Below, one piece after another: positions 17,449 to 61,281 of a stretch of DNA of 64,000 bases; the stretch's first letter is position 1; each line of letters opens with the position of its first letter. A program made the translations under genes and the position numbers. Below the pieces are notes generated by a model, which saw nothing but the letters and a program-made list of their open reading frames with translations, had not been told where the DNA came from and ran no database searches. The stretch lies in contig NZ_CP018760.1 in assembly GCF_001913155.1 (NCBI RefSeq), positions 248,001 through 312,000 of the forward strand, written 5' to 3'. The DNA is from Maribacter hydrothermalis (GTDB lineage: Bacteria; Bacteroidota; Bacteroidia; Flavobacteriales; Flavobacteriaceae).

Positions 17449-18102
17449 TTAGTTTCCTTTTTTGTAATCTGCCAAGAACTTCTCTAAACCACTATCAGTT
17501 AATGGGTGCTTTAATAGTCCGGTAATTGAACTTAAACCACCTGTCATAACATCAGCACCAATTTTAGCACAATCGATAATATGCATTACGTGACGTACAG
17601 ATGCTGCTAATATTTGAGTTTCGTAACCGTAGTTATCATAGATTAAACGAATATCTGCAATCAATCCTAATCCGTCTGTAGAGATATCATCTAAACGACC
17701 AATAAAGGGCGATACGTAAGTTGCACCCGCCTTCGCGGCCAATAATGCTTGACCAGAAGAGAATACCAATGTACAGTTTGTTCTATATCCTTTATCGGAG
17801 AAATATTTAATTGCTTTTACACCTTCTTTAATCATAGGTACTTTAATAACGATTTGCGGGCTAATTTTAACCAACTTCTCGCCTTCTTTTACCATACCTT
17901 CAAAATCAGTAGAAATAACCTCAGCACTAACGTCACCGTCTACTAGATCACATATTTTCTTGTAATGCGCCAAAATGTTGTCAGCCCCTGTAATTCCTTC
18001 TTTTGCCATTAAAGATGGGTTTGTGGTAACACCATCTAAAATACCCATATCCTGAGCTTCTTTAATCTCGTCTAAATTTGCTGTATCTATAAAAAATTTC
18101 AT
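17449..18102 (-). CDS. tal: Transaldolase (FSA/TalC subfamily)
   Basis: This 217-aa class I aldolase transfers dihydroxyacetone units in the non-oxidative pentose phosphate pathway. The Schiff-base lysine is K87 in IVIKVP, and the N-terminal [10 protein letters not shown] and GVTTNPSLM motifs are typical. The residue equivalent to Tyr131 of E. coli fructose-6-phosphate aldolase is Phe133 here ([11 protein letters not shown]), which is the transaldolase-type residue. It lies 55 bp downstream of transketolase on the same strand, so the two form an operon. Family length is normal. Confidence 0.93.
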
Positions 18103-24037: not shown

Positions 24038-24727
24038 TTAAAATCCGTCTGCTAATTCTTGTAATTTTTGCTCTTGTAAAATCCCAATTTTTTTACCCGC
24101 TGATTTGATGAGTCCTTTTTTCTTAAATTCAGATATCATTCTAATAAGTGATTCTGTTGCAGCACCCACTATATTTGCATAATCATCTCTACTTAAAGTC
24201 AATAACAAAAAGCCACTCTCATCTTCCCCATAGTTCTTTTTCAAATAAATAAATGCTTCCGCCAAACGCTGTTTCACGGTTTTTTGAGACATATTTACAA
24301 TGACATCATCTGCCTCTTTTAAATCGTGCGCCAAGTGACGGAGTACTTCCAGTGAAAAATTAGGGTTTGTATTCAAGGTATTAGAAATAACTTCTTTTGG
24401 AATAAAGCATACCTCCATATCATTTATTGCAGTTGCACTAAGGTTTGTAAAATCTTCTGCAATTACAGAACGTTGACCCATAATCTCTCCTTTATTGGTA
24501 AGTTTCACAATCTGTTCTTTACCGTTACTACTAAGTTTAGAAAGTTTAGATACCCCTTCTTTTACGCAAAAAACGCCATCGAGTTTTTGACCTTCTATAA
24601 ATAAGGCGTCACCTTTTTTTATCTTTTTAGAAATTTTAGAATCAGAAACTTTTTGCAATTCCGTTTTGCTCAACGCTCTTAATGAATTAAACTGACGTAT
24701 AATACAATTTTCGCATCTGCTTTCCAT
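24038..24727 (-). CDS. FNR-type oxygen-responsive transcription regulator
   Basis: This 229-aa Crp/Fnr-family protein has a cNMP-binding-like beta barrel (about 20-130), a dimer helix and a C-terminal HTH. Its Cys residues are C5, C8, C54 and C107. C107 in DMEVCFIPKE lines up with C122 of E. coli FNR, and C5-x2-C8 is at the N-terminus, so an Fe-S cluster is plausible, although the N-terminal cluster is shorter than in E. coli. The recognition helix AATESLIRMISEF has the Glu of FNR proteins. It shares a bidirectional FNR box with ccoI and so appears autoregulated. Confidence 0.85.
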   Translation of the reverse strand: MESRCENCIIRQFNSLRALSKTELQKVSDSKISKKIKKGDALFIEGQKLDGVFCVKEGVSKLSKLSSNGKEQIVKLTNKGEIMGQRSVIAEDFTNLSATAINDMEVCFIPKEVISNTLNTNPNFSLEVLRHLAHDLKEADDVIVNMSQKTVKQRLAEAFIYLKKNYGEDESGFLLLTLSRDDYANIVGAATESLIRMISEFKKKGLIKSAGKKIGILQEQKLQELADGF

Positions 24728-27241: not shown

Positions 27242-27475
27242 TACCCTATAAATTTCATCAAACTTAATCTTATAAAACACACCTAGCTAAACACAAGTGT
27301 CCAATTATATTTTTTATATAAAATCGTGAAAATTTTTTAAACAAATATTTATTCTCAATAGGTTTTAAGCTAATAAAAACATACAGCAACGTACTTTATA
27401 TCAAATACTTACAACTAAACAACTCAAATTACACCTCACTATTTTTTAGATTTTATTAAGATATTTTTTAAAGTA

Positions 27476-27518
27476 TGACAATTGTCATTTTCTAAGGCTT
27501 TTAACCCCCTTAATTTTA
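27476..27518 (+). promoter_or_regulatory. FNR-type promoter of the cbb3 operon
   Basis: A perfect palindrome TGAC-AATT-GTCA lies at 27476-27487 (centre 27481.5). The -7 box TAATTTTA is at 27511-27518, with its first T again 29.5 bp from the operator centre. The predicted start is about 15 nt before the ccoS ATG. The remainder of the 296-bp gap between ccoI and ccoS is AT-rich, and I see no other feature in it. Confidence 0.8.
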
Positions 27519-51310: not shown

Positions 51311-51354
51311 GTAACTAATGTTACCTAAAAACTTACCATGATCCAATAAATTTG
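51311..51354 (+). promoter_or_regulatory. GTAAC-type promoter of the DUF983-crp operon
   Basis: The palindrome GTAAC-TAAT-GTTAC (51311-51324, centre 51317.5) precedes TAAATTTG (51347-51354), a perfect TAnnTTTG, whose first T is 29.5 bp from the centre. The predicted start is 13-14 nt before the ATG. This is the founder of a second operator family in the window. The box controls the operon of the regulator that is likely to bind it. Confidence 0.82.
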
Positions 51355-51372
51355 ACATAAAGTTTTAATGGT

Positions 51373-51762
51373 ATGATAGCAAAAGGTTCAAAACTGTACA
51401 GTATAATTTTTTTAAAATGTCCAAGATGTCATAAAGGAAAATTTTTGGAGGCCAATCCCTATAAATTAAGTAATTTCAATAAACTAAAAGAACGGTGTCC
51501 AAAATGCGATTTAAAATATAGTATAGAACCTAGTTTTTACACAGGGTCTATGTACGTTTCTTACGCCGTTGGTATTGCAGTAGCTGTGGCAGCATATGTT
51601 TTAACCCTTATATTTGGATTGCAACTTGGCATAAAATCTTTGTTCATAACAATTGTGGTTGCATTGGTGCTGACAATGCCATGGATAGCCGCAGTTTCTA
51701 AATCTATTTGGGCAAATATGTTTTTTAAATTCGATAAAGAATTAGCTAAAAAAATTAATTAA
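51373..51762 (+). CDS. DUF983 membrane protein
   Basis: This 129-aa protein begins with zinc-ribbon-like Cys pairs (LKCPRCHKGKF and RCPKCDLKY) and has two membrane helices (about 60-85 and 88-112). The family is of unknown function. It starts the operon of the Crp/Fnr-family regulator, which begins 8 bp after its stop. Confidence 0.85.
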   Translation: MIAKGSKLYSIIFLKCPRCHKGKFLEANPYKLSNFNKLKERCPKCDLKYSIEPSFYTGSMYVSYAVGIAVAVAAYVLTLIFGLQLGIKSLFITIVVALVLTMPWIAAVSKSIWANMFFKFDKELAKKIN

Positions 51763-51769
51763 AATAGAA

Positions 51770-52402
51770 ATGATCCAAGACTTAACGGAAGAATACGGAA
51801 ATATCTTTGAAGAAGAACTCATTAATGAGATTGTTCAAGTAGGCACATTTAAAGAAGTACCTGAGGGATATAAACTTATGGAGATTGGTGATTTTATAAG
51901 AGGTATGCCTTTATTGATTTCTGGGGTCATTAAAATTTTACGAGAAGATGAAGATGGTGATGAACTTTTATTATACTATCTAGAAAAAGGCGATACATGC
52001 TCTATGACCATGGCTTGCTGTATGGGTGATAAAAAAAGTGAAATTAGAGCAATCGCAGAAACTGATGCTAAATTAATAATGGTTCCTATTCAAAAAATGG
52101 AAGAATGGACAGCCACATACAAATCTTGGAGAAACTTTGTTTTTAACAGCTATCACGTTAGGCTAAATGAGCTGTTGAGTACTTTAGATAATATTGCTTT
52201 TCAAAAAATGGATGAACGCTTAATTGGTTATCTAAAAGAAAAAGCTAGGGTTACCAATGATAATATTATTCATAGCACCCATCAAGATATTGCCTACGAT
52301 CTTCATAGTTCTAGAGTAGTAATTTCTAGACTCTTAAAAAAATTAGAAGAGTTGGGCAAAATTAAACTACACCGAAATTATTTAGAGATTCTGGATTTAT
52401 AA
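51770..52402 (+). CDS. Crp/Fnr-family regulator of the sulfur module
   Basis: This 210-aa protein has a cNMP-binding-like barrel (1-115), a long dimer helix and an HTH. Its sensor domain holds C77, C83 and C84 (GDTCSMTMACCMG), a Cys trio that could sense redox or sulfur species. The recognition helix HSSRVVISRLLKKLE is like the NtcA one (STRVTVTRLLGDLR) and not FNR-like, since it lacks the FNR Glu. NtcA binds GTA-N8-TAC, the same arrangement as the GTAAC-N4-GTTAC boxes here. The regulator sits in their midst and has one in its own promoter. Confidence 0.85.
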   Translation: MIQDLTEEYGNIFEEELINEIVQVGTFKEVPEGYKLMEIGDFIRGMPLLISGVIKILREDEDGDELLLYYLEKGDTCSMTMACCMGDKKSEIRAIAETDAKLIMVPIQKMEEWTATYKSWRNFVFNSYHVRLNELLSTLDNIAFQKMDERLIGYLKEKARVTNDNIIHSTHQDIAYDLHSSRVVISRLLKKLEELGKIKLHRNYLEILDL

Positions 52403-52409
52403 TTCTTCT

Positions 52410-52453
52410 GTAACCATTGTTACTGCATAGGTTTCCGTACCAGTATATTTTTG
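52410..52453 (+). promoter_or_regulatory. GTAAC-type promoter of the TSUP permease
   Basis: GTAAC-CATT-GTTAC (52410-52423, centre 52416.5) precedes TATTTTTG (52446-52453), a perfect TAnnTTTG 29.5 bp from the centre. The predicted start lies 13 nt before the ATG. Confidence 0.8.
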
Positions 52454-52471
52454 TGATACCAAATATATCAC

Positions 52472-53269
52472 ATGGAAATTTTGCACTTTTTTGGATACTT
52501 CAGCGCATTAATAATAGGAGTTTCATTAGGACTTATTGGTGGCGGGGGGTCCATATTAGCTGTACCTGTTTTAGCTTATTTATTTACAATTAATGAAAAA
52601 GCGGCTACGGCTTATTCACTTTTTATTGTTGGTGCAAGTGCATTAGTTGGTGGTTGGCAACAACATCTAAAAGGTTATGTGGATTGGCGTACTGCTATCG
52701 TTTTTGGTATTCCTGCAATTATTGGCGTAACGGCTGTTAGACATTATGTGGTGCCCGCTATGCCCGATGTTTTATTTCAAATTGAACACTTTCAATTTAC
52801 GCGCAGAATGGCCATGTTTGGCTTATTTGCCATATTGATGATTCCTGCTGCATATTCGATGCTTAAAAAAGATAAACCTGTTCTTAAAACAGGTAGTGTC
52901 CACTATAACTATCCGTTAATATTGGCAGAAGGACTACTAGTTGGTAGCATTACCGGATTAATTGGAGCTGGTGGCGGATTTTTAATTATACCGGCACTGG
53001 TAATTTTGGCAAATGTAGAAATGAAAGTTGCCATAGGCACCTCTTTAATTATAATTGCTATAAAATCTTTAATGGGTTTCTTTTTAGGTGATGCTATGAC
53101 AATGGTTATAGATTGGAGTTTTTTGGCAATGTTCACAGGGCTCTCATTTATCGGGATTTTTATTGGTAGCTACCTTAGCAACTTTATAGATGGTAAAAAA
53201 TTAAAAAAGGGTTTTGGCTATTTTATTCTTATTATGGCAGCCTTTATTTTTTACATGGAATTTTATTAA
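52472..53269 (+). CDS. TSUP (TauE/SafE) permease, likely sulfur-compound exporter
   Basis: This 265-aa membrane protein has about eight helices. The two repeat halves open with IIGVSLGLIGGGGSILAVP and GLIGAGGGFLIIPAL, the duplicated TSUP motif. TSUP proteins export sulfite, sulfonates or thiosulfate-related compounds. Its place before a persulfide dioxygenase gene points to sulfite or thiosulfate export. It has its own GTAAC-type box. Confidence 0.88.
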   Translation: MEILHFFGYFSALIIGVSLGLIGGGGSILAVPVLAYLFTINEKAATAYSLFIVGASALVGGWQQHLKGYVDWRTAIVFGIPAIIGVTAVRHYVVPAMPDVLFQIEHFQFTRRMAMFGLFAILMIPAAYSMLKKDKPVLKTGSVHYNYPLILAEGLLVGSITGLIGAGGGFLIIPALVILANVEMKVAIGTSLIIIAIKSLMGFFLGDAMTMVIDWSFLAMFTGLSFIGIFIGSYLSNFIDGKKLKKGFGYFILIMAAFIFYMEFY

Positions 53270-53283
53270 AAAAAAATCCTTAT

Positions 53284-53327
53284 GTGACTAATGTCACTGT
53301 AGAACATAGTAACAACCTCTAATTTTA
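53284..53327 (+). promoter_or_regulatory. GTGAC-type promoter of the persulfide dioxygenase gene
   Basis: GTGAC-TAAT-GTCAC (53284-53297, centre 53290.5) precedes TAATTTTA (53320-53327), one mismatch from TAnnTTTG, again 29.5 bp from the centre. The inner part TGAC-TAAT-GTCA also satisfies the FNR-type pattern, so either regulator might bind. Confidence 0.75.
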
Positions 53328-53353
53328 TCCTATTAAATATTAATTATTACAAA

Positions 53354-54766
53354 ATGAAAGTAGAACAAATATATACAGGCTGTCTTGCACAAGGTGCATA
53401 CTATATAGAAAGTAAAGGAGAAGTTGCTATTATAGATCCACTAAGAGAAGTACAACCTTACATTCAAAAAGCAAAAACTAATAATGCTAAAATTAAGTAC
53501 ATTTTTGAAACTCACTTTCATGCCGATTTTGTTAGTGGTCATGTGACTTTGGCAAAAGAAACTGGTGCAGATATCATATACGGACCACAAGCAAACCCCT
53601 CATTTAAAGCAATTATAGCAACAGATAATCAAGAATTTAAACTTGGGGATATTACTATAATTGCCTTACATACCCCTGGCCATACTATGGAAAGTACCAG
53701 CTATCTTTTAAGAGATGAAAAAGGTAAAGACTATGCGTTATTTAGTGGCGACACCTTATTTCTTGGTGATGTAGGTAGACCAGATTTAGCGCAAAAAATA
53801 GGCATACTTACGGAGCGCGATTTAGCAGGATATTTATATGATAGCTTACGAAAGAAAATTATGCCCTTGGCAGATGATGTAATTGTATATCCAGCACATG
53901 GGGCAGGTTCTGCATGTGGTAAAAATATGATGAAGGAAACGGTTGATACTTTGGGTAACCAAAAGAAAATGAATTATGCCCTACGTAAAGACATGACCAA
54001 AGAGGAATTTATTGATGAAGTTATTGACGGTTTACTGCCCCCACCTCAATATTTCCCTCTTAATGTAAAAATGAATAAGGAAGGTTACGAAGATATTAAA
54101 ACAGTATTGGAACGTGGAACAAAAGCACTTTCCCCAAAGGCTTTTGAAGCCGCGGCAAATGAAACTGGCGCTATCGTTTTAGATGTACGCCATCAAGATG
54201 ATTTTGCACAAGGCCATATTCCACGTTCTATTTTTATTGGTCTAGATGGCAGTTTTGCTCCGTGGGTCGGTGCTTTAATCGCAGATGTAAAGCAACCTAT
54301 TTTATTGGTAACTGCAAAAGGCATGGAAGAAGAAGCTGTAACAAGACTTTCTAGAGTAGGTTTTGATGGTACGTTGGGATATTTGGAAGGTGGGTTTGAA
54401 GCTTGGAAAAAGGCTGCAATGGAATATGATACCGTAAGCCAAATTGATGCTGATGAACTTAAAACGGCGATAAAAAAAGATAATGTATCTGTTTTTGATG
54501 TACGAAAAGAATCTGAATACAAATCTGAACACGTTATAGGAGCCAAAAATACTCCTTTAGATTTTTTAAACGACCATTTAGCCCAATTCCCTAATAACAA
54601 AACATTTTATGTGCATTGTGCCGGTGGCTATAGAAGTATGATAGCTTCGTCTATTCTTAAAAGCCGAGGTATTCACAATTTAATAGATGTAAAAGATGGG
54701 TTTAAAGCTATACAGGAAGCGAAAATACCTGTCTCTGAATTTGTTTGCCCAACTACGCTTTACTAA
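53354..54766 (+). CDS. CstB-like persulfide dioxygenase-rhodanese fusion
   Basis: This 470-aa protein starts with a metallo-beta-lactamase persulfide dioxygenase domain (about 1-230): THFHADFVSGH, HTPGHTMES, FSGDTLF and YPAHGAGSACG hold the iron-binding His and Asp. A rhodanese-like domain at about 265-355 has no active-site Cys (LLVTAKGMEEEAV). A second rhodanese domain at about 365-460 has it in VHCAGGYRSM. That is the architecture of CstB, which converts persulfide to sulfite and thiosulfate. It is cytoplasmic and has a GTGAC-type promoter. Confidence 0.9.
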   Translation: MKVEQIYTGCLAQGAYYIESKGEVAIIDPLREVQPYIQKAKTNNAKIKYIFETHFHADFVSGHVTLAKETGADIIYGPQANPSFKAIIATDNQEFKLGDITIIALHTPGHTMESTSYLLRDEKGKDYALFSGDTLFLGDVGRPDLAQKIGILTERDLAGYLYDSLRKKIMPLADDVIVYPAHGAGSACGKNMMKETVDTLGNQKKMNYALRKDMTKEEFIDEVIDGLLPPPQYFPLNVKMNKEGYEDIKTVLERGTKALSPKAFEAAANETGAIVLDVRHQDDFAQGHIPRSIFIGLDGSFAPWVGALIADVKQPILLVTAKGMEEEAVTRLSRVGFDGTLGYLEGGFEAWKKAAMEYDTVSQIDADELKTAIKKDNVSVFDVRKESEYKSEHVIGAKNTPLDFLNDHLAQFPNNKTFYVHCAGGYRSMIASSILKSRGIHNLIDVKDGFKAIQEAKIPVSEFVCPTTLY

Positions 54767-54850
54767 TTTTTTATTGGTTGGTTTATTTAGGAAACGGTCA
54801 TTATATTAAATCGTTTTCTATTATTGAATATTAATTTTAAATAAAATACT

Positions 54851-55198
54851 ATGTCATTTTTAAGTGCACTCTTTGGTAAAAAAGAACAAGATGTTACCGG
54901 TAATATCACCGTATTGAGTAAGAACGAATATGCAACACAAATTGTAACTAATAATATTAAACCTATTGATGTTAGAACATCATCTGAATACAATAGTGGT
55001 CATATTAAAAATGCAATCAATATAGATTTTTTCAATGCTGGTAATTTTAAGAATTATTTTGATAAGCTAAATAAAGAAAAACCTGTTTATGTCTATTGTA
55101 GATCAGGTGCAAGAAGTCAAAAGGCTGCTCGAAAGCTATTAAACATGGGCTTTACACAAGTGTATGATTTAAAAGGAGGGTATAATTCTTGGAATTGA
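54851..55198 (+). CDS. Single-domain rhodanese
   Basis: This 115-aa sulfurtransferase has the active Cys in VYCRSGARSQKAA and DVRTSSEYNSGHIKNAINI as the domain entry. It may move persulfide sulfur to or from the CstB-like enzyme just upstream. There is no signal peptide. The 84-bp gap to that gene shows no operator of its own. Confidence 0.92.
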   Translation: MSFLSALFGKKEQDVTGNITVLSKNEYATQIVTNNIKPIDVRTSSEYNSGHIKNAINIDFFNAGNFKNYFDKLNKEKPVYVYCRSGARSQKAARKLLNMGFTQVYDLKGGYNSWN

Positions 55199-55300
55199 TC
55201 TAAAAATGGTTTTCAAATTTTAAAAATTTTGGCATTCTGTATTTATGCGTAAACAACTTTATCCTTGAAAATTATTTAATTAACTATTTATTTTATACTC

Positions 55301-55930
55301 ATGAAAAAGGCATTTTTTTTATTGGCAACTATTTTTGTATTTAGCTGTAAAGATTCTCCAAAAGTAAACGATGGAAACACAATTGATAGAATAGATACTA
55401 TTGATACTAATAAAACTTCTTTAATAAATGATAGTATTTTTCTAGAAAAAGGAAAAAACTACGCCCAAAGTACCCAAAAAATTTTAGGAAAAAATCTTAT
55501 GGCCAGTTTACAAAAAAACGGGGCTGTCGGCGCTGTAGAATTTTGTAATGAAAAAGCATACCCCTTAACAGATAGTATGGCAGTTGTACATAATGCAAAA
55601 ATTAAAAGGGTGAGCGATAAACCAAGAAACGCTAACAACCAAGCTAGCGAAAATGAGCTGGAGTATATTGAATTTTTCAAATCAAAAATCAATAATAAAG
55701 AGTCTTATGAACCTATCGTAGAAAACAATAATGGAAAAATTAATTATTACTCTCCAATTGTAACAAATACCATGTGTCTAAACTGTCATGGGATACCGGA
55801 GACGAATATAGACCCCAAGGTTACCCAAATATTGAATGATAGATACCCATATGACCAGGCAACTGGTTACAAAGAGAACGAGGTAAGAGGTATTTGGAGT
55901 ATAACTTTTAACAATGAACAAAATAAGTAA
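55301..55930 (+). CDS. DUF3365 heme-binding lipoprotein
   Basis: This 209-aa lipoprotein (lipobox Cys at residue 16, FVFSC) has the DUF3365 domain (Tll0287-like) with a single CxxCH heme c site in MCLNCHG near the C-terminus. Family proteins carry heme and are sometimes sensors or cytochromes. Sequence DKPRNANNQASENELEYIEFFK is typical. Periplasmic localisation is expected. It precedes the HMA gene by 3 bp. Confidence 0.82.
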   Translation: MKKAFFLLATIFVFSCKDSPKVNDGNTIDRIDTIDTNKTSLINDSIFLEKGKNYAQSTQKILGKNLMASLQKNGAVGAVEFCNEKAYPLTDSMAVVHNAKIKRVSDKPRNANNQASENELEYIEFFKSKINNKESYEPIVENNNGKINYYSPIVTNTMCLNCHGIPETNIDPKVTQILNDRYPYDQATGYKENEVRGIWSITFNNEQNK

Positions 55931-55933
55931 GAT

Positions 55934-56203
55934 ATGACATCAGTAATTCCTATTCAAAATTTAAAATGTGGTGGCTGTGCAAAAACAATCATCTCAAAAT
56001 TAGAAGAGATTTCATCGATTACCAATGTATCGGTCTCAGTAGAATCATCATCAGTTTCTTTTGATACTTCGAAACTTGAAGATATAACTGTCGTGAAAAA
56101 TAAATTAATGTCAATTGGCTACCCAAGTATTGACCAAGAAAATTCAGTGCTTTCAAAAGCAAAGTCTTTTGTGAGCTGTGCCACGGGTAAACTATCAGAC
56201 TAA
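55934..56203 (+). CDS. Heavy-metal-associated (HMA) domain protein
   Basis: This 89-aa protein is a single HMA/CopZ-like domain with the metal site CGGC (LKCGGCAKTIISKLEEI). It may be a cytoplasmic copper chaperone. It begins 3 bp after the DUF3365 gene, so they are cotranscribed. Confidence 0.85.
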   Translation: MTSVIPIQNLKCGGCAKTIISKLEEISSITNVSVSVESSSVSFDTSKLEDITVVKNKLMSIGYPSIDQENSVLSKAKSFVSCATGKLSD

Positions 56204-56239
56204 ATTATAAGAATTTTTAAAGAAGAAGTAATTAATTTG

Positions 56240-57115
56240 TTACTTCTTCTTTCTTTTAAACCCATGGGTAACTTGCCCTAAAAAATCTTGTGGTAAATTT
56301 TCATCTCCTGGATAACCTAATCTTATAGTACCACTATCTTCTGGTATGTAGTTCGTTTTGAAGATATAATCCCATAGACTTAAGCTAATACCAAAATTTA
56401 CGCCATAGGTGCCTTTCGGCAAATCATAGGCATGATGGTATAAATGCATAACCGGGTTATTAAATATATACTTTAATGGACCCCATGTAATTTTAATATT
56501 AGAGTGGTTGATATGACCAATCGCTATTGCTGCAAAATGAACTATGTAAGCTTGTTCTGGTTCAAAACCTCCAAGTATCATTACACCAAAAGTTTTTAAA
56601 GGTTTGTAAAAAATATTTTCCATCCAGTGGTAACGCAAATGAGCTGCAAAACCCATTTCTTTTACACTATGGTGTACTTTATGGAAATTCCATAGAAAGG
56701 CATATTTATGTAATAATATATGCGTAAACCATTGCACAAAATCCAAAACAAGAAAAAATACCACTAATTGTCCCCACATAGGCCAACTAGCTGTATCTAT
56801 TATTGCCAAACTATCTGTTTTAATACCTATGTCTTTAAAAAATACCTGTAAAAGTTTATATATACCACTTATTGCTATGGCAAATAGAAAGAAGTTGAAA
56901 AACATATAAAAACCGTCTAACCAAAAATCTTTTCTAAATACACCTTGTTGCTTTCTCCATGGAAAAACAATTTCTAAAAGCCAAACTACCAATGAAATAG
57001 AAATTAAGCCCCAAAAATAATTAAGGTACCAAGGAACCTGAAAAATGATTGATTTCCATGTCCAACTTAATGTTCCGGTTATTGCATTTAAAAAGGCATC
57101 AATATATGCTTCCAT
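56240..57115 (-). CDS. Fatty acid hydroxylase / sterol desaturase-family membrane protein
   Basis: This 291-aa protein has about four to five membrane helices and the His clusters of the family: HILLHKYAFLWNFHKVHHS and HLYHHAYDLP, which bind a di-iron centre. It probably hydroxylates a membrane lipid. It has a GTAAC-type promoter on the minus strand, which places it in the same regulon as the sulfur genes, for a reason not evident from the sequence. Confidence 0.88.
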   Translation of the reverse strand: MEAYIDAFLNAITGTLSWTWKSIIFQVPWYLNYFWGLISISLVVWLLEIVFPWRKQQGVFRKDFWLDGFYMFFNFFLFAIAISGIYKLLQVFFKDIGIKTDSLAIIDTASWPMWGQLVVFFLVLDFVQWFTHILLHKYAFLWNFHKVHHSVKEMGFAAHLRYHWMENIFYKPLKTFGVMILGGFEPEQAYIVHFAAIAIGHINHSNIKITWGPLKYIFNNPVMHLYHHAYDLPKGTYGVNFGISLSLWDYIFKTNYIPEDSGTIRLGYPGDENLPQDFLGQVTHGFKRKKK

Positions 57116-57132
57116 TCCTCAATCGCTTTTTA

Positions 57133-57176
57133 CAAAAATACTTTATTAAAAATGACCCTTTTGTAACCAAAGTTAC
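57133..57176 (-). promoter_or_regulatory. GTAAC-type promoter of the fatty acid hydroxylase gene
   Basis: GTAAC-CAAA-GTTAC (57163-57176, centre 57169.5) precedes TATTTTTG (57133-57140, minus strand), a perfect TAnnTTTG 29.5 bp from the centre. The predicted start is 12-13 nt before the ATG. Confidence 0.8.
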
Positions 57177-57208
57177 TTTAAACCATTGCATAATCATCAA
57201 TTTTATCG

Positions 57209-57252
57209 GTGACCAATGTCATAGGACTTAAACTAATTATAATGTAATTTTC
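57209..57252 (+). promoter_or_regulatory. GTGAC-type promoter of the DUF2892 gene
   Basis: GTGAC-CAAT-GTCAT (57209-57222, centre 57215.5) precedes TAATTTTC (57245-57252), one mismatch from TAnnTTTG, 29.5 bp from the centre. The leader would be about 80 nt. The inner TGAC-N4-GTCA also fits an FNR site. Confidence 0.65.
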
Positions 57253-57339
57253 AATAGTCAAATAGGCCGCCTTTATGTTTGTCCATAAATTTTTGGCAAC
57301 ATTACAAATTACTTTAAGCAATAACTAAAAATTAGTATC

Positions 57340-57546
57340 ATGAAAAAAAATATGGGAAGCACAGACCGTTTTATTCGAATTTTTATAGCCGTAGCACTTT
57401 TAACAACCTTTTATACGGATACCGTTACCGGAACTTTAGGTTATATAATGGCAGCGGTGGCAGGCATTCTAATTTTGACAACCTTTATTAGTTTTTGTCC
57501 AATCTATACTGTTTTAGGAGTCAATACCTGCAAAATTAAAAAGTAA
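57340..57546 (+). CDS. DUF2892 small membrane protein (YgaP-like)
   Basis: This 68-aa protein has two membrane helices and the family element SFCPIYTVLGVNTCKIK with two Cys. DUF2892 domains are fused to rhodaneses in YgaP, so the protein fits a sulfur-transfer module. It has its own upstream box and converges on the porin gene. Confidence 0.88.
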   Translation: MKKNMGSTDRFIRIFIAVALLTTFYTDTVTGTLGYIMAAVAGILILTTFISFCPIYTVLGVNTCKIKK

Positions 57547-57586
57547 TATTAGGAAATTTCATTTCACACCATTACACCTAAATAGT

Positions 57587-58921
57587 TTAAAAATTATAGT
57601 TAAGAACAAAGTCTAGATGAAACATATCTACCTTGTTAAAATAGAAATTGGGATTATCCGGTATATCCCCATTTCCAATTTTAGCAGTCAAAAGCAACTC
57701 TGGCCGAAATCGCTTTAACTTTTTAATATCAAAGAAAATATCTAGGTTAACATGGGTGTAATTTGGCATAGCATACTTGTTTAATATGGCATTGTCTACG
57801 TCTGGTTTCCAGTACTTACCCATACTAAGTATGGTGTTTAGGTTTAGATCTTTATGTATTAAAAAATCCTTTTTATAATTCACTACTAGAGCATGATTAT
57901 CCGCTGTCCCTTCACTACGCTCACGCTTTTGAAAACTGAATAAGTCTTCCCTACCCCATTCTCTTGGAGCTATAAATTGACCGTGCGGTAATATTCTATC
58001 ATACCCTAAAGAAACTAAACCTGCTTTAATTTTATAGGAGATTTTTAACCCTAACACATCAGCTGAATTTTGATTAAAATAACGAAAGGAATCTATATTG
58101 CTACCACCATTACCAACCTTATTTTGGTGTAACCACTCCCCTTCTAATTGAACAGATTTTGTAATTTTATAAGAAGGTTTTAAATAGAATGAATTGAATA
58201 TGTTTTCAACATACTGATTCCAGACGTTCACAGTTAAATTATCGGCTATTTCAAAATCAACATTAGCCAATAAAATATAATCAGATGCCGTATTATTTGA
58301 ATACAACGCTGTATTCCCATAAACGTTTCTACCCTCGGGGTATGTACCTATACTTTCCCCTATACCATAAAATTTGCCTGTAGATCTAGGTGCAATTTCA
58401 TTTAAAAATCCCAATTGCATTATTGTGTTGTTTATCTTATGGTCATACCAAAAACCCTGTACTAGAGTAGGTATCATTCTACCATCTTCAGGGTTAATCA
58501 AAGGTGAATTCACCTTCATTCTGCCTAAAGTAAATGTGTGATTCTTAACCCTATATTTAACATGAAGTTCTCCTAATAAAAAAACGGCATCATTTTCTAG
58601 ATCTAACCTATCAAAAAGTCCTTCTTCGTATCTACTTAATTTATTGGTAGTTACATCGGGTATTGTTAGGTCCTGTAATCCAAGATTAGTAGCATTATAA
58701 ACTGCAGCTCCTATTTCTAAATTTTTAAGCAGTTTGTATTGATATTTCAATTTTCCTCCTGTTGCCAATGCATTAAAATCTTTCAATTCTCCTTTGTTTG
58801 ACGTCATCATATAATAGGTCCGCCATTGCCCAGAAAGGGTTCCCATCTTCTTTGTATCAACAGAATCTTGTGCCATAGAAAATATGGGTAAACAAAAAAT
58901 GAATAGAAATACTAATCGCAT
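57587..58921 (-). CDS. Outer-membrane porin-like barrel (OprD/OprO-like)
   Basis: This 444-aa protein has a signal peptide (MRLVFLFIFCLPIFSMAQ) and a long, alternating-strand barrel with ends such as YRVKNHTFTLGRMKVNSPLINPEDGRMIP and a C-terminal aromatic Phe. The pattern of LxxGRxxxxSP and large exposed loops is typical of OprD-type channels. It starts 4 bp after the TsdA-like cytochrome gene, so the two form an operon, which suggests a channel for the substrate of that cytochrome. Confidence 0.75.
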   Translation of the reverse strand: MRLVFLFIFCLPIFSMAQDSVDTKKMGTLSGQWRTYYMMTSNKGELKDFNALATGGKLKYQYKLLKNLEIGAAVYNATNLGLQDLTIPDVTTNKLSRYEEGLFDRLDLENDAVFLLGELHVKYRVKNHTFTLGRMKVNSPLINPEDGRMIPTLVQGFWYDHKINNTIMQLGFLNEIAPRSTGKFYGIGESIGTYPEGRNVYGNTALYSNNTASDYILLANVDFEIADNLTVNVWNQYVENIFNSFYLKPSYKITKSVQLEGEWLHQNKVGNGGSNIDSFRYFNQNSADVLGLKISYKIKAGLVSLGYDRILPHGQFIAPREWGREDLFSFQKRERSEGTADNHALVVNYKKDFLIHKDLNLNTILSMGKYWKPDVDNAILNKYAMPNYTHVNLDIFFDIKKLKRFRPELLLTAKIGNGDIPDNPNFYFNKVDMFHLDFVLNYNF

Positions 58922-58925
58922 TATG

Positions 58926-59963
58926 CTATTTTGTTTTGATAATTCCGTATTTCTGCTTATAAAAATCCATTATGGGAGGAAAAGGGCCATATTTATGCTG
59001 TTCGGCAGAAAAATCATCTACCCATGGTCCATAGGGCGTAGATACTGGTTTTAGTTTCTTGTCTGGATAATCATTTTCAGTATTCAACTTATGAGGTCTG
59101 GTAAAACTATTAATATATCCGGCTACATGATATGCCTCCTCATCTGTTAATTTTGGATTATCCCAGGTGGCTTGTAAATATGGCATGTTACTTTTTATAA
59201 ATTCAGCCGAAGTAATCACCCTATTCATACCAGCACCATCATTAAAACTATCTGGTCCCCAAAGTGGCGGATACGTATAACTTTTACCATCCACTGCATT
59301 GAGAACTCCTTCCCCATTTTCACCATGGCAGATTACACATTCTTTTTGATACACCTGACTACCTTTTTCTAAGTTAACTGCTACATTGGGAATCTCAATT
59401 TTTGGATACCCTTTAAACTCCGCTTTTCTATTCTCTGGCAATCCTTCACTTAGCCAGGCCATATAAGCTACTATAGCATCCATTTTATCCGAATCTACAG
59501 GTAGCATTCTACCATTCATACTCCTTTCCATACATCCATTTATTCGGCCTTCAATAGTACCTATTTTATTACCACGACCACCAAATTGAGGGAAACGCTC
59601 TAAAATACCCACCCAAGAACCGGAACCTGCCTGTGCACCCTGTTTTAAATGACAATTGGCGCAAGCTAAATTGTTTCCACTATAGCGATCTGCAGGATTC
59701 ACTGCCTTGGGACCCATATATTTTGAGGACTCTGCTATCAGGTAATAGCCTTTTTTTACTTCTGCAGGCATATTATTAATTTCAGAAATGGCATTCCTAG
59801 GTTCCCAGTTTACACTTGTAGCGATTTCATCCGTCTCGGAAGTACTAACAGATTTAACATATGGCTTATAATTTAAAAGCCATAAAAATACAATACCGAC
59901 CAAAACGAATACTATCGCAAATAGTTTAAAAAATTGTTTCGCCAATATTCGTAATTCATTCAT
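58926..59963 (-). CDS. TsdA-like diheme cytochrome c (thiosulfate dehydrogenase family)
   Basis: This 345-aa protein has an N-terminal membrane anchor (about 10-30) and two heme c motifs, CANCHLKQG and CVICHGENG. The intervening segment WVGILERFPQFGGRGNKIGTIEGRINGCMERSMNGRM is typical of thiosulfate dehydrogenases; the Cys in GCMERS is the likely axial heme ligand as in TsdA. These enzymes oxidise thiosulfate to tetrathionate, or reduce tetrathionate. The membrane anchor is unlike the soluble forms. It shares a bidirectional GTAAC box with the DsrE-like gene. Confidence 0.75.
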   Translation of the reverse strand: MNELRILAKQFFKLFAIVFVLVGIVFLWLLNYKPYVKSVSTSETDEIATSVNWEPRNAISEINNMPAEVKKGYYLIAESSKYMGPKAVNPADRYSGNNLACANCHLKQGAQAGSGSWVGILERFPQFGGRGNKIGTIEGRINGCMERSMNGRMLPVDSDKMDAIVAYMAWLSEGLPENRKAEFKGYPKIEIPNVAVNLEKGSQVYQKECVICHGENGEGVLNAVDGKSYTYPPLWGPDSFNDGAGMNRVITSAEFIKSNMPYLQATWDNPKLTDEEAYHVAGYINSFTRPHKLNTENDYPDKKLKPVSTPYGPWVDDFSAEQHKYGPFPPIMDFYKQKYGIIKTK

Positions 59964-59993
59964 ACAAATGTAATCTTACGCTAATTTAAATAA

Positions 59994-60067
59994 CGAATCT
60001 ATAATTTACACATGATTATTAAAGTAACCGTAGTTACAGTAAAGTTAAATACATTAACTTACTTTTA
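59994..60067. promoter_or_regulatory. Bidirectional GTAAC-type promoter for tsdA-like and dsrE-like genes
   Basis: GTAAC-CGTA-GTTAC (60024-60037, centre 60030.5) has a -7 box on each side at the same distance of 29.5 bp. They are TAGATTCG (59994-60001, minus strand, one mismatch) toward the cytochrome and TACTTTTA (60060-60067, plus strand, one mismatch) toward the DsrE gene. Leaders are about 25 and 80 nt. Confidence 0.7.
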
Positions 60068-60151: not shown

Positions 60152-60679
60152 ATGAAAAAAGCATTCTTAATTGTAATAGTATTTATGACTACACAACTAA
60201 TTTCAGCACAAGACTGGACTACACCCATTATTAAAGGCTACGGAAAAATAAAGGAATTTAAGGATGTGGTTACGCAGCCAGACCCTACCAAAGAGTATAA
60301 TCTTGTATTTGACCTTAAAGATGAACGTGTACTAGAAGGCATTAACATAGGCTATTTCAAGATCGCCAGAATGATAAATATGCTAGGTGCCGGTGGTGTT
60401 TCTCCTGATAATGTAAACATCGTTGCCGCTATACATGGGGGTGCAACATTTACCGCATTGAACGAAGACAAATACCAAGAAAAATATGAAAAGGCAAATC
60501 CTGATGCGGAGGTAATAAAATTATTAAAGGAATACGGCGTAAAATTTTATGTTTGTGCGCAAGCAACGGCCGCTAGAGATATAAGTGCAGCAGATTTAAA
60601 CCCAAATACAGAACTGAGCTTATCTGCTATGATGGTGCTTGCCAATTACCAATTAGAAGGGTATATTTTTATGCCTTAA
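60152..60679 (+). CDS. DsrE/F-like periplasmic protein
   Basis: This 175-aa protein has a signal peptide (MKKAFLIVIVFMTTQLISAQ) and a DsrE-type fold with the late Cys in YVCAQATAARDIS. Family members bind or transfer sulfane sulfur. Here the export signal would place it in the periplasm, along with the TsdA-like cytochrome. It is followed 11 bp later by a methyltransferase gene. Confidence 0.85.
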   Translation: MKKAFLIVIVFMTTQLISAQDWTTPIIKGYGKIKEFKDVVTQPDPTKEYNLVFDLKDERVLEGINIGYFKIARMINMLGAGGVSPDNVNIVAAIHGGATFTALNEDKYQEKYEKANPDAEVIKLLKEYGVKFYVCAQATAARDISAADLNPNTELSLSAMMVLANYQLEGYIFMP

Positions 60680-60690
60680 TTGAGCATGAT

Positions 60691-61281
60691 ATGAAAGATT
60701 TTTGGAATGCCCGGTATAAGGAGGAAAGTTATGCTTATGGAAATTTACCTAATGAATTCTTTAAACAACAGCTAGATAAATTAAAAGTAGGTTCAATTCT
60801 TTTACCTGCTGAGGGCGAAGGTAGAAATGCCGTTTACGCACTCTCTAAAGGTTGGGAAGTAATGGCCTTTGACTTTAGCAAATCTGCTAAGGACAAAGCT
60901 CAGAATCTGGCCAAAAAAAATGGTTTCCATCTTGAATATCAAGTAATAGATGTGCTTGATTTTGAAACAACAAAAAAGTTTGATGTTATTTGTTTTTGTT
61001 ATACACATTTTCCTTCATCTATTCGATTTAAAGCAAGTCAACATCTCCTAAAATCCTTAAGCACCAAAGGATATGTTATTTTTGAAGGGTTCTCTAAAAA
61101 ACAATTAGGTAAAACTTCTGGCGGACCTAAAGATATAAGCATGCTCTACTCCATTGCTGAAATTGAAAAAGAGTTTGAAGGTTTACATTTTGAAATGTTA
61201 AAAGAGCAAGAAATAGAATTAAATGAAGGGCCTTATCATATAGGTAACGCATCCGTAATTCGTTTCTTTGGAAGTAAATAA
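60691..61281 (+). CDS. SAM-dependent methyltransferase (TehB/thiol methyltransferase-like)
   Basis: This 196-aa class I methyltransferase has MKDFWNARYKEESYAYGNLPNEFF as its start, then the SAM loop LLPAEGEGRNAVYALSKGWEVMAFDFS, as in the TehB-like or thiol-methyltransferase group. Its place directly after the DsrE-like gene suggests a thiol or sulfide substrate, but that is inferred from context. It ends at a bidirectional terminator. Confidence 0.82.
   Translation: MKDFWNARYKEESYAYGNLPNEFFKQQLDKLKVGSILLPAEGEGRNAVYALSKGWEVMAFDFSKSAKDKAQNLAKKNGFHLEYQVIDVLDFETTKKFDVICFCYTHFPSSIRFKASQHLLKSLSTKGYVIFEGFSKKQLGKTSGGPKDISMLYSIAEIEKEFEGLHFEMLKEQEIELNEGPYHIGNASVIRFFGSK

Follow-up and report, generated by a model that had tools for sequence, protein, structure and literature searches.

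We analysed a stretch of 64,000 nucleotides from Maribacter hydrothermalis (positions 248,001 to 312,000 of contig NZ_CP018760.1, assembly GCF_001913155.1; hereafter the window), in which a Crp/Fnr-family activator encoded at 51770-52402 probably controls a sulfide/persulfide regulon, with two of its cysteines, C77 and C83, most likely reacting with persulfide or polysulfide. The original prediction for this DNA had proposed a second Crp/Fnr-type regulon, devoted to sulfur oxidation and persulfide and driven by the 51770 protein, and this proposal is supported by comparative evidence, namely the conserved spacing between operator and promoter, the nature of the target genes and the covariation of protein and site.

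Operators and promoter boxes in the window

Six palindromes, at 51311, 52410, 53284, 57163, 57209 and 60024, had been claimed, together with seven promoter directions in which a TAnnTTTG-like −7 box follows; all of these were recovered, each box matching at five or six of the six fixed positions. Throughout, a boxed direction is one in which the first base of the box lies exactly 29.5 base pairs (bp) from the palindrome centre, with 5 or 6 of the 6 fixed positions of TAnnTTTG matched.

51311..51324, + strand: palindrome GTAACTAATGTTAC, putative operator for DUF983-crp
51347..51354, + strand: −7 box TAAATTTG, 29.5 bp from the centre of the 51311 palindrome
52410..52423, + strand: palindrome GTAACCATTGTTAC, putative operator for the TSUP permease
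52446..52453, + strand: −7 box TATTTTTG, serving the TSUP direction
53284..53297, + strand: palindrome GTGACTAATGTCAC, putative operator for the CstB-like gene
53320..53327, + strand: −7 box TAATTTTA, serving the CstB-like direction
57133..57140, − strand: −7 box TATTTTTG, serving the fatty acid hydroxylase direction
57163..57176, − strand: palindrome, putative operator for the fatty acid hydroxylase gene
57209..57222, + strand: palindrome GTGACCAATGTCAT, one half degenerate (GTCAT), putative operator for the DUF2892/YgaP-like gene
57245..57252, + strand: −7 box TAATTTTC, serving the DUF2892 direction
59994..60001, − strand: −7 box TAGATTCG (5 of 6), serving the TsdA-like direction
60024..60037, no single strand: palindrome GTAACCGTAGTTAC, putative bidirectional operator (TsdA-like/DsrE-like)
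60060..60067, + strand: −7 box TACTTTTA, serving the DsrE-like direction

The seven boxed directions of the window compare with a mean and a maximum of 0 in 150 first-order Markov sequences of the same composition, and its 12 strand hits of the palindrome with a mean of 0.57 and a maximum of 6; one motif match, at window position 17623, is unboxed. The whole genome, a single contig of 4.27 Mb, contains 17 full GTRAC-N4-GTYAC palindromes, ten of which are packed into 30.4 kb (genome 299311-329687; binomial P about 6e-18), a cluster that starts inside the window and ends 17.7 kb past its end. When all 17 full palindromes and 14 of the 22 one-sided GTYAT matches were checked for a box at 29.5 bp with at least 5 of 6 positions, nine of the former and one of the latter (window 57209) had it; outside the cluster, the palindrome at 4008267 has such a box and the remaining six have none. 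The signal is thus the clustering together with the fixed spacing, not the 14-mer alone.

Conservation of the motif and its spacing

Among relatives, we compared 110 loci carrying homologues of the regulator, made up of an 80-locus set (the best 80 of 177 relatives) and 30 loci of about 3.6 kb. GTRAC-N4-GTYAC occurs at 315 sites in these loci, and every other gap from 0 to 11 gives 0-5; likewise, TAnnTTTG lies at 29.5 bp in 158 cases, and no other offset between 7.5 and 72.5 bp has more than three. A scan of the 80-locus set that was blind to the half-site, seeking exact palindromes 29.5 bp before TAnnTTTG, returned GTAAC 124 times and the runner-up twice. In the same set, 79 of the 80 loci have a boxed site, 75 have one within 3 kb of the regulator, and only 5 of 240 boxed sites fall inside open reading frames (ORFs) of at least 120 amino acids, versus 1358 of 1600 random positions. 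A T precedes the palindrome in 86% of 278 promoters sharing less than 75% identity, and a G stands at −33, on the promoter side only, in 55% of them; the palindrome and box columns of this profile were preselected, so their strength is no evidence. The comparison across flavobacterial genomes that had been proposed at the outset supports the prediction, in that motif and fixed spacing recur beside regulator homologues in the sampled Bacteroidota loci. The median number of palindromes per Mb is 2.5 in genomes with the regulator and 1.1 in those without, a weakly supportive comparison of 69 of 167 positive genomes with all 32 negative ones, which tend to be small.

The 51770 regulator

The 51770 protein matches PF00027 (34.3 bits, cut-off 27.5) and PF13545 (34.3 bits, cut-off 27) and so belongs to the CRP/FNR superfamily, and its predicted structure, which drew on 30 of the homologues rather than all of them, has a CRP-like fold by structural alignment. 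Its best match among solved sequences is PDB 3dv8 (E 3.2e-20), a Crp/Fnr-type regulator with Cys residues of its own where C77 and C83 align. It scores 45.7 bits against the NCBIfam CRP equivalog, whose cut-off is 266, and no ArsR or CsoR domain was matched at E 0.01. Of the 199 family genomes sampled, 167 contain a relative (E 1e-10), as do 131 of 395 phylum genomes (E 1e-30); both counts include more distant paralogues.

All 111 aligned rows (the query and the 110 loci, its own locus among those) have C77 and C83, and 109 of them keep C84; conservation of two or more cysteines is a trait of reactive-sulfur regulators. These three are the only cysteines of the protein, which differs from FNR in lacking the N-terminal Fe-S cysteine cluster. 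When aligned with CRP, they flank the phosphate-binding cassette. E. coli CRP binds cyclic AMP (cAMP) through Glu72, Arg82 and Ser83, which correspond to M79, K89 and S90 here; the 51770 protein differs from CRP in having M79 in place of the ligand Glu72, without the full set of cAMP ligands, and in presumably acting at a promoter with a Bacteroidetes −7 box.

Three ties link the protein to the sites: proximity within 3 kb, co-occurrence with the C-x5-C pair, and covariation of residue 183, with exceptions. In a further 86 loci, in which five genomes appear twice and some loci are short, a boxed site was found in 43 of the 73 with C-x5-C and in 0 of the 13 without it. In a tree of 139 of the 216 rows, the homologues that lack C-x5-C fall into two groups. 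C83 is lost, while C77 and most of the recognition helix are kept, in L131, L132, L133, L137, L138, L150, L212-L215 and L217.

Residue 183 of the recognition helix is equivalent to CRP Glu181, which contacts the middle pair of the half-site. Most homologues have Val here and another set has Glu; sites are present in 149 of the 171 C-x5-C loci with Val183 and in 23 of the 32 with Glu183. The third base of the half-site is A in 458 and G in 40 cases with Val183 (n=498), versus A in 18 and G in 26 with Glu183 (n=44). Counted without redundancy, at least one G occurs in 31 of 249 sites of the Val183 type and in 20 of 22 of the Glu183 type (Fisher P 1.5e-14), although most of the Glu type belongs to a single clade and the proteins lacking C-x5-C fall into two groups, so that the P values overstate independence and this tells against our interpretation. 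In most Glu183 genomes of the family, the TSUP and CstB-like promoters carry GTGAT/GTAAC and GTAAC/GTGAC, and the Glu183 protein of L204, which lies among Val proteins, has the site GTGAC/GTGAC. Residue 183 and the half-site thus covary well but not perfectly, through a handful of independent changes. The GTRA(C) half-site presumably lines up with the GTGA of CRP, and its tolerance of A or G fits the protein because it, unlike CRP, has Val in place of the recognition-helix Glu. Together, these ties make the 51770 protein very probably the reader of the sites.

A model for activation

In the model that we propose, the 51770 dimer would bind TGTRAC-N4-GTYAC sites whose centre, if the first T of the box is −12, lies at about −41.5, as in a class II Crp site covering the place of the −33 element, and would contact RNA polymerase at the Bacteroidetes-type TAnnTTTG promoter; the regulator would activate its own operon too. 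In CRP and FNR, the class II position is centred about 41.5 bp before the start, and the 51770 protein resembles these E. coli class II activators in its cyclic nucleotide-binding fold, its Crp helix-turn-helix and the distance of its site from the presumed start. Class II activators work from a fixed distance, and the operator-box distance found here suggests one: because the spacing is exact, direct contact with polymerase, and hence activation, would be expected.

The pocket occupied by cAMP in CRP would here carry two strictly conserved cysteines, C77 and C83, and usually also C84. Persulfide or polysulfide arising from sulfide oxidation most likely modifies these thiols, by a di- to tetrasulfide bridge or by S-sulfuration, and the modified thiols would switch the dimer into its DNA-binding form. 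A sulfide or persulfide signal, read by C77/C83 at the place of cAMP in CRP, is suggested by the targets, which serve sulfide oxidation, the handling of sulfane sulfur and the transport of sulfur compounds, and by the two invariant thiols of the pocket. The computation establishes the sites, their geometry and conservation, the targets, the co-occurrence and the covariation of residue 183 with the half-site; activation rather than repression, the transcription starts, and the signal with its chemistry are inferred. The predicted output comprises sulfide oxidation by the sulfide:quinone reductase (SQR)-like protein, persulfide, thiosulfate and sulfite chemistry (CstB-like, TsdA, SorA-like, DsrE), transport of sulfur compounds (TSUP, YeeE, SulP) and protection by peroxiredoxin and, judging from adjacency, by cytochrome bd.

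Genes of the proposed regulon

In all, 376 boxed directions were counted, 370 of them with an ORF, and these fall into 26 clusters; the counts are not independent, as the own locus and several genomes were entered twice. Nine sulfur-gene clusters (CstB-like, TSUP, SQR-like, YeeE, DUF2892, TsdA, SulP, DsrE and SorA-like) are faced by 255 of the 370, the regulator or DUF983 by 47 and other genes by 68. The boxed directions per cluster are: CstB-like 114, TSUP 64, regulator 27, SQR-like 24, DUF983 20, YeeE/TsuA-like 20, DUF2892 15, fatty acid hydroxylase 14, Tll0287/cytochrome c 14, peroxiredoxin 12, TolC-like 12, TsdA-like 6, SulP 6, DsrE 3, SorA-like 3, HMA-like 3, a 139-amino-acid protein of no known function 2, 4Fe-4S/NrfD 2 and CydA-like 2, with seven singleton clusters, OsmC and ArsR among them. 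Names come from searching one representative of most of the larger clusters against Pfam or NCBIfam, TolC-like and HMA-like having been assigned by eye, and the SorA-like, TsuA-like and CydA-like proteins score under the NCBIfam equivalog cut-offs. OsmC is the boxed gene near a Glu-type regulator in two distant Bacteroidota (L204 7425-7886 by Pfam; L216 by eye), which suggests that it is part of the sulfur response there.

In the window, the genes under the sites are as follows.

51373..51762, + strand: DUF983 membrane protein (PF06170), directly before the regulator gene in a putative operon
51770..52402, + strand: Crp/Fnr-type regulator, 210 amino acids (PF00027, PF13545), with C77, C83 and C84 in the effector-pocket region and recognition helix SRVVISR
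52472..53269, + strand: TSUP (TauE/SafE) permease (PF01925)
53354..54766, + strand: CstB-like metallo-beta-lactamase/double rhodanese of the persulfide dioxygenase-sulfurtransferase type
54851..55198, + strand: rhodanese (PF00581), downstream of the CstB-like gene in the same direction and, from its position, probably co-transcribed
55301..55930, + strand: Tll0287-like protein (PF11845), downstream in the same direction
55934..56203, + strand: HMA-domain protein (PF00403), downstream in the same direction; the HMA-like cluster is its look-alike by eye
56240..57115, − strand: fatty acid hydroxylase-family membrane protein (PF04116)
57340..57546, + strand: DUF2892/YgaP-like transmembrane protein (PF11127)
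57587..58921, − strand: OprD-type porin (PF03573), the next gene after TsdA and probably co-transcribed
58926..59963, − strand: TsdA-like di-haem thiosulfate dehydrogenase, matching thiosulfate dehydrogenase 4wqc (E 8.4e-47)
60152..60679, + strand: DsrE-like protein (PF02635)
60691..61281, + strand: S-adenosylmethionine-dependent methyltransferase (PF13649), the next gene after the DsrE-like one and by its position a putative member

The CstB-like protein matches the solved 3tp9 (E 2.8e-69) and 3r2u (E 4.1e-56), which we take to be CstB, over almost its full length, and Tll0287/cytochrome c genes have boxed sites of their own in other loci. The methyltransferase at 60691-61281 has a weak TehB/TPMT likeness, and a role as a thiol or sulfide S-methyltransferase is possible.

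The regulon continues past 60067 and past the window, with a peroxiredoxin accompanied by a second CstB-like gene and with TolC, and, less surely, the SQR-like and cytochrome bd genes are further members. The sites concerned, in genome coordinates, are listed below.

312122, − strand: faces a 125-amino-acid protein with several cysteines and no Pfam family (L001 711-1088)
312271: faces a peroxiredoxin gene, after which come a second metallo-beta-lactamase/rhodanese and a Dps-like ferritin
315086: upstream of a CydA-like gene
327590: upstream of an SQR-like flavoprotein, whose best match among solved structures is 3sz0 (E 4.5e-34)
329674: faces a TolC-like gene, which together with the genes after it occupies 329674-337260 (L001 18675-20000, L008 75-6261)
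4008267: boxed, faces a small ArsR gene (L006 1-1581)

By eye, the TolC-like gene is followed by a membrane-fusion protein, a resistance-nodulation-division pump and two YeeE/YedE parts, and this efflux pump is perhaps under sulfide control. The ArsR protein at 4008267 has adjoining cysteines, and its gene is followed by those of a thioredoxin-like protein and a permease, both recognised by eye.

Alternative explanations

Several observations weigh against our interpretation. The bare 14-mer is hardly commoner than a reversed-pattern control in the own genome (17 versus 12), the relaxed GTYAY form is rarer than its control (27 and 29 versus 43 and 43), and the control outnumbers the 14-mer in many of the 199 family genomes; because it is equally common, counts of the bare 14-mer per genome are unusable as proof and were rejected as such. 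Within the cluster, the site at 315086 has its box, TACCTTTG, at 28.5 rather than 29.5 bp, and the box at 29.5 bp from the site at 327590, GAACTTTA, scores only 4 of 6. Of 23 unboxed palindromes near homologues, only one lies inside an ORF, so the box does not account for everything, and 68 of the 370 targets, including fatty acid hydroxylase, Tll0287, peroxiredoxin and TolC, are not plain sulfur genes. As to the protein, the pocket region is modelled with low confidence (predicted local distance difference test values of 67 and 58); 30 of the 73 C-x5-C loci have no boxed site in the DNA covered, some of these loci being only about 3.6 kb; relaxing the motif brings out a site at one homologue that lacks C-x5-C (L150); L059 combines Glu183 with GTAAC in both sites; and several Val proteins (L134, L136, L144, L146 and L160) have G-rich sites.

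The commonness of the bare 14-mer is also what a chance or compositional origin of the sites would lead one to expect. The original prediction had held chance to be unlikely, which stands for the clustering and the fixed spacing and fails for the 14-mer by itself. A chance or compositional artefact was rejected on the offset distribution (158 versus at most 3) and on the lack of any boxed direction in the 150 Markov sequences; given also the clustering, the conservation and the gene context, its probability is negligible. Another Crp/Fnr protein might instead bind the sites, such as the Fnr-like one encoded at window 24038-24727 (− strand), which has N-terminal cysteines and the recognition helix ATESLIR. 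A minority of CTGAY/ATGAY near-palindromes near regulator homologues also lie 29.5 bp from TAnnTTTG, so this geometry may be shared by other members of the family, and the genome may hold Crp-like genes unmatched by HTH_Crp_2. However, both other proteins that HTH_Crp_2 matches in this genome carry the helix ATESLIR, unlike the SRVVISR of the 51770 protein, and its Glu should favour half-sites containing G, not GTAAC, and it is residue 183 of the 51770 family that covaries with the half-site. Among the HTH_Crp_2 matches, the Fnr-like 24038 protein was rejected as the reader on these grounds, and binding by another family member is very improbable. An ATGAC-type palindrome lies at window 27475-27488, and there may be a class II motif of Fnr type that keeps the 29.5 bp distance too.

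If the 51770 protein is the reader, it could still act as a repressor that persulfide releases, as with SqrR and BigR. Its operator does overlap the −33 position, yet CRP and FNR, as class II regulators, activate from a centre some 41.5 bp upstream of the start, and repression has no need of a phase-exact distance, such as these boxes keep. Even though the persulfide-responsive ArsR proteins are repressors, according to the accessible part of a review (PMC9774590), we consider repression improbable. The signal is a separate matter: with the same regulator and regulon, the cysteines might read oxidants, oxygen or redox state, nitric oxide or a metal, the sulfur genes then being a redox response. 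Such a response would suit the 12 boxed directions of the peroxiredoxin cluster, the Dps-like ferritin gene next to it in the own genome, and the cytochrome c and 4Fe-4S/NrfD proteins among the targets; moreover, PrfA, a member of the same superfamily, is responsive to the redox state of glutathione, and FixK2 contains a cysteine sensitive to oxidation, as stated in the available part of PMC12937710. Against it, sulfur-gene clusters take 255 of the 370 boxed directions and no nitric oxide reductase or catalase was seen among the annotated clusters, and we regard it as unlikely. Activation in response to sulfide or persulfide is the interpretation that we retain.

Relation to known regulators and implications

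SqrR, BigR, CstR and FisR control SQR, persulfide dioxygenase or rhodanese genes. These regulators differ from the 51770 protein in being of the ArsR, CsoR or Fis type, not Crp/Fnr, with SqrR and BigR acting as repressors, and resemble it in that two or three conserved cysteines sense reactive sulfur (PMC9774590, in the part available). The same part of this 2022 review lists CstR, SqrR/BigR/PigS, FisR, OxyR, LasR and OhrR as reactive-sulfur sensors and names no Crp/Fnr protein among them (PMC9774590). Crp-type proteins tied to thiols, as far as the accessible text of PMC7315123 goes, are Acinetobacter baumannii Crp, Pseudomonas aeruginosa Vfr and Listeria PrfA, which either become persulfidated when cells are treated with sulfide or are activated by glutathione; what persulfidation does to A. 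baumannii Crp is stated there to be unknown. The 51770 protein differs from these in that its regulon is itself sulfur chemistry and its cysteines align with the effector pocket. A limited open-literature search with few terms returned no account of how heterotrophic flavobacteria switch on sulfide oxidation, which does not prove that none exists. Its superfamily, its promoter class and the enzymes that it would control have been described before; what would be new is the proposed Crp/Fnr activator devoted to sulfide and equipped with a cysteine pocket.

We lean towards the view that this protein represents a Bacteroidota-wide Crp/Fnr clade in which the cAMP pocket has turned into a covalent persulfide sensor (C77-x5-C83), forming a dedicated class II activator of sulfide oxidation and a fresh family of reactive-sulfur sensors, with a natural V183E switch traceable in the operators. 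Our analysis supplies a single motif with a candidate regulator and a list of genes. If the cysteines do sense persulfide, this would show that a covalent sensor can evolve from the ligand pocket of CRP, and anyone could use the operator to list candidate sulfide-responsive genes in Bacteroidota genomes.

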